Below are positions 29,084-43,752 of a stretch of DNA of 64,000 bases, in pieces; the first letter of the stretch is position 1, and the number at the start of each line of letters is the position of its first letter. A program made the position numbers and the translations under genes. The stretch lies in NCBI GenBank assembly GCA_015063535.1, contig SVTY01000001.1:62001-126000 (forward strand), given 5' to 3'. The notes below the pieces were generated by a model that did not search any database, was not told where the DNA came from, and worked only from the letters and a program-made list of their open reading frames with translations. The stretch is from Oscillospiraceae bacterium. GTDB lineage: Bacteria > Bacillota > Clostridia > Oscillospirales > CAG-272.

Positions 29084-29575
29084 ATGACAGAAAAAAAGGG
29101 GAAAATTGCTATTGTACCGGGAAGCTTCGATCCCATCACAGAGGGACATATAGATATCATTCGGCGTGCTGCGGAACGGTTTGACCATGTGTATGTGGCA
29201 GTCATGATCAATCAAGCCAAGCAATATAGGTTTTCCATCGAACAGCGAACTCGGATCGCACAAGGGGCGGTGAAGGGGATGGAGCGTGTTTCGGTGATCT
29301 CTTCCGAAGGTATGCTCTGGATGCTTGCCAAGGAGTTGGGGGCTTCTGCTATTGTCAAAGGATATCGGAACGAAGCAGATTGGAAGTATGAGCAGGAGAT
29401 GGCGCAGTACAACAAAGCCCACTATCCGCAGGCGGAAACGATCCTGCTAAAAGCCGAGGAGCACTTGTCTCAGGTCAGCTCGACGGTTGTTCGAGAAAAG
29501 CTTTTGAACAATGAGGATCTGTCTGAGCTGCTGCCGAAAGGTGCCATTCGGGAAATCGAAAAGATCATAAAATGA
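29084..29575 (+). CDS. coaD: Phosphopantetheine adenylyltransferase CoaD
   Basis: Coenzyme A biosynthesis enzyme, 163 residues, usual length. The nucleotidyltransferase motif GSFDPITEGHIDI contains the T/HxGH site, and VSSTVVREKL matches the C-terminal ISSSxVRE motif. It transfers AMP from ATP to 4'-phosphopantetheine. It follows rsmD by 12 nt. No terminator lies between it and spoIVA except the RBS-sequestering hairpin at 29621, so read-through into spoIVA is likely. Confidence 0.96.
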   Translation: MTEKKGKIAIVPGSFDPITEGHIDIIRRAAERFDHVYVAVMINQAKQYRFSIEQRTRIAQGAVKGMERVSVISSEGMLWMLAKELGASAIVKGYRNEADWKYEQEMAQYNKAHYPQAETILLKAEEHLSQVSSTVVREKLLNNEDLSELLPKGAIREIEKIIK

Positions 29576-29620
29576 AAGCGTGTCCGTAAAAATCATAAAC
29601 AGACAAGGTTCTAAACAGCA

Positions 29621-29664
29621 AAATCCTCCCATATGTTTTATTGTAAAATATATCGGGAGGATTT
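29621..29664 (+). promoter_or_regulatory. Long hairpin sequestering the spoIVA ribosome-binding site
   Basis: The 5' arm at 29621-29640 (AAATCCTCCC then ATATGTTTTA) pairs with the 3' arm at 29644-29664 across a TTG loop. This makes 20 base pairs with one G-U and one bulged C (29654). The 3' arm contains the entire GGGAGG Shine-Dalgarno of spoIVA, whose ATG is only 4 nt beyond the stem. No T-run follows, so it is not a normal terminator. RNA entering from coaD would hide the ribosome site. RNA starting within or after the 5' arm would not. Confidence 0.75.
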
Positions 29665-29668
29665 CATT

Positions 29669-31147
29669 ATGGCTGAGCATTCAATTTATCGGGATATTGC
29701 CGAACGAACCGGAGGCGATATTTATATCGGAGTCGTAGGGCCGGTTCGGACGGGAAAATCTACCTTTATCAAGCGTTTTATGGAAGCCTTGGTGCTCCCC
29801 AATATCGACGACGGCTATTCCAGAGATCGTGCGCGGGATGAAATGCCGCAATCGGCTGCCGGAAAAACCGTGATGACAACGGAGCCGAAATTTGTCCCCG
29901 ATGAAGCGGTCACCATTCGCATGGATGATTGCGCTTCTTTACGAGTGAAAATGATCGACTGTGTCGGATATATCGTTTCGGAAGCACTGGGAACCATTGA
30001 AAACGGGCAACCGAGAATGGTGCATACGCCGTGGCAGGATGAGCCCATGCCGTTTGTTGAGGCGGCGGAAATGGGAACGGAAAAGGTCATCAAGGAGCAC
30101 TCTACCATCGGTATGCTGATTACCTCTGACGGAACGATCGGTGAGATCAGTAGAGAGAGCTATGTACCGGCGGAGGAACGGATCGTAAATGAATTGAAAA
30201 GCATCGGCAAGCCATTTGCCATGGTATTGAATTCTGCCGATCCCACCTCAGAGACTGCAATCGCGTTGGCGTATGAATTGGAAGAAAAATACGATGTTCC
30301 CGTAGCCTTGGTCAGTTGCATCGATTTGGACGGAGAGGATATCCGTCATATTTTGGAGCTTGTACTTCACGAATTTCCCGTTTCGGAGATCAGCGTGGAG
30401 CTCCCCGGATGGATGAGTGCCTTGAATAACGACCATCGGGTAAAGGCATCCTTACGTGCCTCTGTCTGTGCCTGTGCCGATCGGGTTCATAAAACGGGAG
30501 ATATCAAGCAGGCATTTTCCGAGCTGCAACAAAATGAATACATTCAGACTTGCTCCATTGACGAAATTGATCTGGGAACGGGAAAAGCTAAGATCAGCGT
30601 ACAGTTCGATGATGCGTTGTATTATTCGACGATCAGTGAATTGACAGGATTTGAGATTCCGAACGAGAGGGCGTTGATCGACCTTTTGAAGGAGCTTTCG
30701 GTTTCCAAAGCGCAATATGACCGTGTTGCCGAGGCATTGGCAATGGCAGAGGAAAAAGGCTATGGGATCGTCATGCCGGGAATGGATGAACTTCGTTTGG
30801 AGGAGCCGGAAATCGTCAAGCAATCGGGCGGATACGGCGTCAAGCTTTGCGCTTCTGCTCAATCCATTCATTTGATTCGAGCCAATATCGAAACCGAGAT
30901 CAATCCAATCGTCGGAACCGAGCAGCAATCCAAAGAATTGCTGGGGTATATGCTTCGTGAGTTTGAAACAGAGCCGGGTAAGATATGGGAATCAAATGTA
31001 TTCGGAAAGAGTCTTTATGAATTGGTAAACGATGGCTTACACAGCAAGCTGGAGCATATGTCCGAAGAATCGCGTACCAAGCTATCCGAAACCTTGGAGC
31101 GGATCATCAACGAGGGCAGTGGCGGTTTGATTTGCATTATTCTATGA
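29669..31147 (+). CDS. spoIVA: Stage IV sporulation protein A, SpoIVA
   Basis: Coat morphogenetic ATPase, 492 residues, the usual length. The Walker A GPVRTGKSTF lies near residue 26. The conserved sporulation-specific blocks DGYSRDRARDEMPQSAAGKTVMTTEPKFVP-type and KEHSTIGMLITSDGTIG are present. In Bacillus it polymerises on the forespore outer membrane as the coat base layer and is made in the mother cell under sigma-E. The ATG at 29669 follows GGGAGG. The frame extends 12 codons upstream into the hairpin, without support. This is strong evidence that the host makes endospores. Confidence 0.97.
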   Translation: MAEHSIYRDIAERTGGDIYIGVVGPVRTGKSTFIKRFMEALVLPNIDDGYSRDRARDEMPQSAAGKTVMTTEPKFVPDEAVTIRMDDCASLRVKMIDCVGYIVSEALGTIENGQPRMVHTPWQDEPMPFVEAAEMGTEKVIKEHSTIGMLITSDGTIGEISRESYVPAEERIVNELKSIGKPFAMVLNSADPTSETAIALAYELEEKYDVPVALVSCIDLDGEDIRHILELVLHEFPVSEISVELPGWMSALNNDHRVKASLRASVCACADRVHKTGDIKQAFSELQQNEYIQTCSIDEIDLGTGKAKISVQFDDALYYSTISELTGFEIPNERALIDLLKELSVSKAQYDRVAEALAMAEEKGYGIVMPGMDELRLEEPEIVKQSGGYGVKLCASAQSIHLIRANIETEINPIVGTEQQSKELLGYMLREFETEPGKIWESNVFGKSLYELVNDGLHSKLEHMSEESRTKLSETLERIINEGSGGLICIIL

Positions 31148-31148
31148 T

Positions 31149-31191
31149 AAAAACAGGCAGAATATCCAAATTCGGATGTTCTGCCTGTTTT
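31149..31191. terminator. Bidirectional terminator between spoIVA and the recombinase
   Basis: A 14-bp stem with arms AAAAACAGGCAGAA and TTCTGCCTGTTTTT continues into TATCC/GGATG. It lies between convergent genes with T-runs on both strands. Confidence 0.85.
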
Positions 31192-32223
31192 TTATTCCTC
31201 TTTTTTGTCGGAGGTGCGATCTCCCAGTGCCTCATGTCGGGAAAGAGGATTGTGCTCCATAGCTTCTTCCATGCTTCTGTTGCTGACATGGGTATAGATC
31301 TGCGTGGTGTTCAATTGCTCGTGTCCGAGAATATCCTTCAACACCCGAACATCTACATTGCCGCTTTGATACATTAGCGTTGCGGCGGTGTGCCGAAGCT
31401 TGTGGACGGAATAATGCTTGGATTCCAGACCTGCCAGATCCAAATATTTATAGACCAACCACTGTACGGTTTTTACACTGATCCGTTGCTCCCGTTTGCT
31501 TAAGAACAGGGCGGGAGTATTGGCTTTGCCATGCATGTCACTCAACCGTTCGTCCAAATAATCACTCAAGGCATCACGGCATGCCTCGTTTAAGTAGATG
31601 ATCCGCTGTTTGTTTCCTTTTCCTGTTACACTCATGGAGCGAAGCTGTCGATCTACATCATTGATATCAATTCCCACAAGCTCGGAAACTCGCATTCCGC
31701 AATTTAAGAACAGCGTGATGATGGCATAATCCCGCACTCTAGATTGAGATTCCGTATCATTTTGAACGGCATCCAGCAACAGCAGACTTTCCTCTAAGGA
31801 AAGGAATTTTGGCAGAGCTTGCTTCCGCTTGGGAGATTCGATATCCACCGCAGGGTTTTCCTCCAGCATCATCCGCTTGGTCGTCAGATATTTAAAAAAG
31901 CCCTTGATCGCAGAAAGCTTGCGGGATTTTGCCGCCGCCATATTGCCTCGCACGGTATCTGTATACATCAAAAAATCATAGATATCCTCTGTGGTAATAT
32001 GTTTGATATAGTCCAGATCCACGGCACGAATGTCGATCTTTTCAAATTCTTCCGAATTGGGATCGATCTTGAACTCTCTCGCCTTTAAAAAGCGAAAAAA
32101 GGTTCGCAGATCCAGCATATATTCGGAAATGGTTTTTTCCGAAGCATTCTGAATGACCGATTTATATGAGGCAAATTCCCGTACCAAAGGGGGAAGCGTT
32201 TCAAGGGGAATACTGTGGAGCAT
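31192..32223 (-). CDS. Tyrosine recombinase, XerC/XerD-like
   Basis: Site-specific recombinase, about 343 residues from this start. The N-terminal SAM-like core-binding domain is about residues 10-115. The catalytic domain has CGMRVSEL (Arg), HKLRHTAATLM (His, Arg), GHEQLNTTQIYTH (His and nucleophile Tyr). All RHRHY residues are present. No phage or integron genes flank it, so a chromosomal-dimer-resolution Xer role is more likely than an integrase role. I chose the ATG at 32223 after GGAGG (11 nt spacing). An ATG 34 codons upstream at 32325 is in frame but has no ribosome site. Which Xer protein it is cannot be decided. Confidence 0.82.
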   Translation of the reverse strand: MLHSIPLETLPPLVREFASYKSVIQNASEKTISEYMLDLRTFFRFLKAREFKIDPNSEEFEKIDIRAVDLDYIKHITTEDIYDFLMYTDTVRGNMAAAKSRKLSAIKGFFKYLTTKRMMLEENPAVDIESPKRKQALPKFLSLEESLLLLDAVQNDTESQSRVRDYAIITLFLNCGMRVSELVGIDINDVDRQLRSMSVTGKGNKQRIIYLNEACRDALSDYLDERLSDMHGKANTPALFLSKREQRISVKTVQWLVYKYLDLAGLESKHYSVHKLRHTAATLMYQSGNVDVRVLKDILGHEQLNTTQIYTHVSNRSMEEAMEHNPLSRHEALGDRTSDKKEE

Positions 32224-43551: not shown

Positions 43552-43752
43552 ATGAATCGTGAAACGGAAAAGTGCGGATGTCCTTCCGGAAAAGGCTCCA
43601 AGGATCATATCAAGGGCATCTGCTGTGATGTGAAAAATTGCGTATATCATGATTGTGAAACCTACTGCACCGCAGAGCAGATCGCAGTTGGTCCCAGCAG
43701 TGCCACCAGCAGTGCGGATACGGCATGCGCAACCTTTAAAGAAAGAAAGTAA
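43552..43752 (+). CDS. DUF1540 small cysteine-rich protein
   Basis: A 66-residue protein with Cys at positions in CGC, GICCDVKNC, HDCETYC and one near the C-terminus. The CCDVKNCVYHDCETYCTAEQI core is the DUF1540 domain, which probably binds a metal. Function is unknown. Such proteins are common in spore-forming clostridia. A consensus AAAGGAGG lies 9 nt before the ATG. A strong hairpin terminator follows, so it is monocistronic. Confidence 0.85.
   Translation: MNRETEKCGCPSGKGSKDHIKGICCDVKNCVYHDCETYCTAEQIAVGPSSATSSADTACATFKERK

Follow-up and report, generated by a model that had tools for sequence, protein, structure and literature searches.

The 93 bases between coaD and spoIVA read as a compact insulator, in which four signals are packed together: a promoter of sigma-E type, the two arms of a hairpin, 5' and 3', the latter containing the ribosome site, and a T-rich gap before the start codon. 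We give this reading a probability of about 75%. The locus lies in a stretch of 64,000 nucleotides that was analysed as a whole and is called the window here. By computation we showed the hairpin, the overlap of the promoter motif with it, the covariation of its arms in a swap test, its link to a T-tract and its preference, among close relatives, for a codirectional upstream gene without a terminator.

The hairpin over the spoIVA ribosome site

NCBIfam models confirmed the gene order rsmD-coaD-spoIVA. The genes and parts of the locus are the following.

29084..29575, plus strand: coaD, the codirectional housekeeping gene upstream (TIGR01510, 147.1 bits, cut-off 103.3)
29608..29614, plus strand: -35 element GTTCTAA of the sigma-E-type promoter (direct sequence check and recurrence in relatives)
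29615..29629, plus strand: spacer of 15 nt between -35 and -10; its 3' portion, AAATCCTCC, is the anti-ribosome-site portion of the 5' arm
29621..29640, plus strand: hairpin 5' arm, AAATCCTCCCATATGTTTTA, overlapping the promoter spacer and the -10
29630..29640, plus strand: -10 region CATATGTTTTA, with the -10 CATATGTT at 29630-29637
29641..29643, plus strand: hairpin loop TTG (from the fold)
29644..29664, plus strand: hairpin 3' arm, C29654 bulged, with the entire ribosome site inside
29655..29660, plus strand: Shine-Dalgarno sequence GGGAGG of spoIVA (direct sequence check)
29661..29668, plus strand: stretch from the ribosome site to the start codon, ATTTCATT, 5 of 8 T; weak here, a terminator-like T-tract in relatives
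29669..31147, plus strand: spoIVA, start codon ATG at 29669-29671 (TIGR02836, 689.2 bits, positions 1-492 of 492)

An in-frame ATG (29633-29635) lies inside the -10, and the list of open reading frames takes it as the start of SpoIVA, which makes the protein 12 residues too long. Since the NCBIfam alignment of SpoIVA begins at 29669, we placed the start at that position. Directly 3' of the gene an ordinary strong terminator of 19 pairs was found (31149-31192, plus strand).

Direct checking of the letters confirmed that 29621-29640 pairs with 29644-29664 in 20 pairs with a single bulged C and buries GGGAGG; the two arms and the enclosed ribosome site had been located exactly to the base in the earlier note. 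The surrounding 161-nt region folded with -40.8 kcal/mol. Its dinucleotide shuffles, 200 in number, averaged -28.2 kcal/mol (sd 3.85), which corresponds to z -3.3, and one of them folded as well as the native region. When the spacer between -35 and -10 was shuffled, 0 of 100 versions folded as well, and among spacers swapped in from other loci the window's own spacer ranked at 0.041. A script called 61 genes in the window, and the 60 with a ribosome-site score of at least 4 of 6 were ranked; spoIVA came first for the hidden ribosome site and also for the energy of the 5' hairpin. Next after spoIVA for a hidden ribosome site came a script-called ORF of 67 codons at 43552 (plus strand); its AGGAGG is paired almost completely with CCTCCTTT upstream.

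From the promoter spacer to the ATG the stem is stable and contains G+C (-22.2 kcal/mol), as in an intrinsic terminator. A simple scan that counts unbroken stems reported no terminator-like site between coaD and spoIVA; the bulge is probably why it missed this hairpin. No Rfam family reached gathering level, and neither of two sub-threshold matches covered the hairpin. A DNA similarity search of the window's own genome returned the site itself and four short weak matches only.

Relatives and the sigma-E-type promoter

Relatives were collected in two steps. A contig scan for spoIVA loci contributed the best 80 of 593 confirmed loci, and a second search, which matched 248 of 295 family genomes, contributed 30 listed loci and 80 further stretches. 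This gave 190 upstream regions, window included, with 175 distinct leaders of 75 bases. The close relatives in named records were metagenome assemblies of clostridia, with ruminant guts as the source of many. The swap test used 147 loci, after 28 of the 175 leaders had been removed for a promoter score below 15 or a -10 lying over 75 bases before the start. Hairpins were sorted into a loose class of 81 loci, which includes weak cases, a strong class of 46 and a strict class of 39, in which the hairpin was defined without the stretch after the ribosome site; under the strict definition 108 of the 147 loci were without a hairpin. Our conclusions rest on the strong and strict classes, not on the loose one.

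In the window the promoter consists of GTTCTAA at 29608, 15 bases and CATATGTTTTA at 29630, and its motif shares bases with the hairpin's 5' arm. It scored 25.2, the 99% level of shuffled leaders being 20.1. This level was reached (at least 20.1) by 113 of the 175 distinct leaders, and 106 of these 113 have a spacer of 15 bases. Their -35 was GTTCTAA in 28 and GTCATAA in 14, while GTCATAT and others also occurred; the -10 in relatives is CATANNNTNTA or near it, after 15 bases. As the weights were set by hand after these leaders had been viewed, the score describes recurrence and is no independent test. The B. subtilis sigma-E compilation, in the accessible part of the publication (PMC517825), has the -35 at positions 1-8 and the -10 at 21-30 with 12 +/- 1 between them, and the spacing before spoIVA agrees with it.

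The earlier note had described a weak sigma-E-like -10 at 29630-29637 with a poor -35. The location was right, but the adjectives were not, since GTTCTAA is the commonest form in relatives. From the -10 position a transcription start is predicted at about 29643-29646, so that RNA started there would lack the 5' arm. Sigma-E presumably uses this embedded promoter.

T-tract and terminator character

We counted T in the 8 bases after the ribosome site. At least 5 T were found in 34 of 39 strict hairpin loci and in 11 of the 108 others (p 1e-18). After dereplication by identity the link remained visible, with 20/24 vs 8/80 below 85% (p 2e-11), 10/13 vs 2/49 below 75% (p 2e-7) and 5/7 vs 2/36 below 70% (p 4e-4); in the strong class the counts were 38/46 vs 7/101. 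Because of this T-tract after the 3' arm in relatives, the element looks like an intrinsic terminator fused with a promoter and a ribosome site. The interpretation in the earlier note has to be corrected here, as in most hairpin-bearing relatives the hairpin has in addition an intrinsic terminator's shape, with the T-tract ending at the start codon. Termination ahead of the start codon is thus as likely a function as a block of translation. In the window ATTTCATT has a longest T run of 3, is broken and lies partly within the stem, so that termination may be weak here.

Upstream gene context

Codon-scored gene calls covered 129 of the 147 loci. The other 18, which include 3 strong hairpins, were dropped (6 with short upstream sequence, 12 unscored). 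The upstream gene was codirectional and unterminated at 36 of the 43 strong hairpins, codirectional and terminated at 5 and on the other strand at 2; the corresponding numbers for the other 86 loci were 26, 35 and 25 (p 7e-9). For the strict class the numbers were 34, 4 and 0 (38 of 39 with called context), compared with 28, 36 and 27 for the loci without a strict hairpin (91 of 108), and so 28 of these 91 also have a codirectional, unterminated neighbour.

With dereplication the link gave p 9e-6 below 85% identity, p 0.055 below 75% and p 1.0 below 70% (4/7 vs 17/32). When pairs differing in the hairpin were compared on a FastTree tree, 6.1 agreed with the context and 0.7 went against it, out of 12 (median p 0.125). 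Among close relatives the link is clear, but many independent events are not proven by it. Gene calls made by ORF length, in which antisense ORFs were miscalled and the links were weaker (p 0.019, 0.012 and 0.003), had been replaced.

The neighbour upstream of spoIVA changes among loci; it is coaD in the window, PolC in L032 (597 bits for a 400-residue part, hence below the whole-protein cut-off) and AzlD in L164. Ten distinct leaders, window included, belong to SpoIVA proteins of at least 80% identity. Seven of them have strong hairpins and two weaker ones; the tenth, from the same genus (L100), has none and lies behind a MoxR-type AAA gene on the opposite strand.

Ribosome-site accessibility and the proposed mechanism

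It had been proposed in the earlier note that the hairpin blocks the translation of read-through RNA and that a shorter RNA is freed. The computed unpaired fraction of the window's ribosome site, 0.000 in read-through RNA and 0.395 in RNA started just after the -10, supports this. Over the 46 strong loci the median rose from 0.00 in read-through RNA to 0.47 in promoter-started RNA, where only 19 of the 46 exceeded 0.5. The other 101 loci gained as well (median 0.30 to 0.60), because a shorter RNA pairs less. In read-through RNA the ribosome site was less than 0.2 unpaired in 43 of the 46 strong loci and in 37 of the 101 others. The strong class is therefore set apart chiefly by full closure in the long RNA. 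For the window, masking is the surer part of the reading and termination the less sure one.

We infer the following course for start point, termination and translation block in cells. RNA running in from the upstream gene, presumably coaD, would carry both arms and fold. The folded RNA would terminate in part at the T-tract, strongly in many relatives and weakly here, and whatever escaped termination would have its ribosome site buried. RNA from the overlapping promoter would begin in the loop or in the first bases of the 3' arm, without the 5' arm, and would be neither terminated nor masked.

The best-placed alternative, which we consider possible though distinctly less probable than the insulator, is that of the earlier note, with the hairpin acting solely as a block on the translation of RNA that reads through; the T-rich gap would then have no part in the mechanism. 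The weak T-tract ATTTCATT of the window fits it, and before yabP, another gene with such hairpins (see below), most strong hairpins have no run of at least 4 T (4 of 18 have one, as do 3 of 24 leaders without a hairpin). The known precedents, in the accessible parts of their publications, are also described as a block of translation. It is at odds with the tight link between hairpin and T-tract at spoIVA loci, which includes the strict definition and the dereplicated sets. That same link, together with the codirectional neighbour and no other terminator at 36 of 43 strong hairpin loci, would favour the converse, that an ordinary terminator of the upstream gene overlaps the promoter and the ribosome site as the spacer is short, and that masking plays no role of its own. 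We regard this as unlikely, given that in the window the ribosome site is completely paired despite a poor T-tract and that strong yabP hairpins without T-runs occur. The insulator would combine both effects.

Covariation of the arms

In the 147 loci the hairpin was stabler with the native spacer than with one exchanged from another locus (mean -2.9 kcal/mol, p 7e-8) or with a shuffled one (-4.2 kcal/mol, p 3e-12); in these p-values related loci count as independent. Taken singly, 58 of the 147 loci beat 95% of shuffles and 36 beat 95% of swaps. When 62 loci dereplicated below 75% SpoIVA identity were used and the start spacer was excluded, the swap effect was -1.8 kcal/mol (p 0.046). The arms thus covary by spacer swap, as the earlier note had suggested checking across related clostridia.

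The first spacer base by the -10 was in a C-G pair in 28 of the 46 strong hairpins, G-C in 12, U-G in 3, U-A in 1, A-U in 1 and unpaired in 1; these pair types were taken from each locus's own fold and lean towards pairing. A MAFFT alignment of 18 leaders was not used for pair counts, as the window's ribosome site was moved by one base in it. Examples of paired arms are CCTCCC/GGGAGG, CCTCCGC/GCGGAGG, CCTCCCGG/CCGGGAGG and GATCTTCCGTCA/TGATGGAGGATC.

An inverted repeat that spans the -10 element could also be a DNA palindrome bound by a regulator, for instance SpoIIID, which according to the accessible part of PMC517825 turns spoIVA off in B. subtilis, or another dimeric protein. We consider this very improbable, as in relatives the arms lie anywhere from a few to tens of bases apart and the stem keeps its pairing although its sequence varies. 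Least credible of all is a chance pairing of a purine-rich ribosome site with a pyrimidine-rich promoter spacer, for which the many relatives without a hairpin, the dereplicated swap test at only p 0.046 and the rank of 0.041 could be cited, against the absence of a match in 100 spacer shuffles, the first place among 60 genes, the excess of hidden sites in spoIVA leaders (55/175) over coaD leaders (2/30) and the T-tract link, which chance would not lead one to expect.

The same build before other genes

In the window's own genome the build was found once more before yabP (YabP 77.7 bits, cut-off 75.4).

C2:31306-31340 (L196 position 1501), minus strand: yabP element, composed of promoter, hairpin, ribosome site and T-tract

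Here GTCATAA is followed after 15 bases by CATAGGATAGA, with the arms CCTCCGC/GCGGAGG, then TTTTTT and ATG (-27 kcal/mol); a small S4-domain gene has its stop codon 19 bases before the hairpin. In the family, 70 yabP loci gave 69 leaders, and 18 of the 42 with a good promoter score have the build (17 of 42 when re-run with fewer shuffles).

Two further sites of this genome were observed. At C19:57509-57562 (L200 position 1501) a hairpin of -33.6 kcal/mol holds CATACTATGATA and a ribosome site and is followed by TTTTTT and the ATG of a hydrophobic, Cys-rich peptide of 30 residues; a codirectional ORF upstream ends 14 bases before the hairpin. At C18:34170-34219 (L222 position 1501) a vegetative-type promoter, TTGACT-17-TATAAT, has CCTCCGA in its spacer, and TCGGAGG, TTTTTT and ATG come next, before a serine-hydrolase-like gene; the fold is weaker (-11.4).

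In relatives, a CCTCCGCATA...GGAGG build was seen before SigK-like and CwlD-like genes (L305, L306, L309 and L310), and a near-perfect CCTCCGCATA/TATGCGGAGG palindrome stands directly before lipoprotein-like genes of unknown function in L303 and L304. The relatives' sigma factor gene was SigK by one NCBIfam model (275 bits, cut-off 252) and below the cut-off of another (264.5, cut-off 298.65); the CwlD-like amidase was above the cut-off for Amidase_3 and below that for CwlD on the part scanned.

Hidden ribosome sites (less than 0.1 unpaired) were counted in 55 of 175 spoIVA and 20 of 69 yabP leaders, and in 6, 7 and 2 of the 30 best-scoring loci each for the cwlD, sigK and coaD models. The start codons of the cwlD and sigK sets were assigned by script, and the sigK-model set probably mixes sigma-E and sigma-K genes. 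By the same test, strong hairpins were found in 2 of the 30 best-matching cwlD loci and 0 of the 30 sigK loci, and the recurrence there is thin.

A pattern search of the window's own genome was not enriched (6 matches, 5 in the reversed control). Requiring a T-run in addition gave 16 rows compared with 5 in the control, several of them overlapping or ordinary terminators, and requiring TCATAA gave 4 compared with 0, one of the 4 being the yabP site. Family-wide, 14 of 118 genomes contained the pattern, with 18 matches that fall on 16 places, and the control had 12 matches; 14 of the 16 places were inspected and 8 of these directly precede a plausible gene start. A search of the window's own genome for sigG gave a match below the cut-off.

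Because the count-based pattern searches were barely above their controls, a regulon-wide device is a lead and not a result. We put forward only tentatively, at somewhat less than even odds, that in this clostridial family the mother-cell (sigma-E) regulon makes recurrent use of the promoter-in-terminator-in-ribosome-site module, rebuilt before spoIVA, yabP, sigK, cwlD and others that lie close behind housekeeping genes, where it would insulate both transcription and translation.

Known systems and significance

In intrinsic terminators a G+C-rich hairpin and a T-tract behind it close off the upstream gene. The spoIVA element differs in that the ribosome site of the next gene serves as its 3' arm and the spacer to the start codon as its T-tract, while its 5' arm contains part of the next gene's promoter. 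In the fold-back protection of the IS10 and IS50 transposases, RNA from outside folds over the start region; this concerns the ends of mobile elements and involves no developmental promoter.

The earlier note had likened the element to the hairpin-masked late genes of phage T4. This likeness is apt, but the closest published case we found, B. subtilis sigG (spoIIIG), was not named there. In the accessible text on sigG a hairpin of 20+ pairs was proposed to block read-through RNA from spoIIG (PMC5942855). The two share a sporulation gene behind an operon. The sigG hairpin is impossible in RNA from the gene's own promoter, as is predicted for spoIVA. The sigG promoter is of the sigma-F/sigma-G type and not of the sigma-E type. 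The large sigG hairpin, as described in that text, comes with no T-tract, terminator fusion or cross-species comparison of genome context. In T4 e, soc, 49, I-TevI and relatives, the late promoter lies within the DNA encoding the 5' strand of the hairpin, so that early long RNAs are masked and late RNAs free, with a 100-fold effect for gene e, according to the accessible parts of PMC3014915 and PMC2988022. These hairpins differ in serving phage temporal control, and a block of translation is described for them there, not termination. As far as these texts go, the masking of read-through RNA has precedents in B. subtilis sigG and in the late genes of T4. In the open-access literature, searched mostly without subscription papers, we found no description of such a hairpin for spoIVA and none of a promoter located within a terminator of this kind.

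In the window a housekeeping gene ends shortly before spoIVA, and no separate terminator stands between the two. One hairpin that ends or silences incoming RNA and at the same time hosts the developmental promoter would explain how the gene is kept off in growth, and SpoIVA protein should probably be synthesised only once transcription is initiated at the proper position during sporulation. The reading also leads to a testable rule, that when a gene comes to lie newly behind a codirectional neighbour, its promoter spacer evolves to pair with its ribosome site. Such a rule could help to find sigma-E promoters and to correct start calls in uncultured clostridia.
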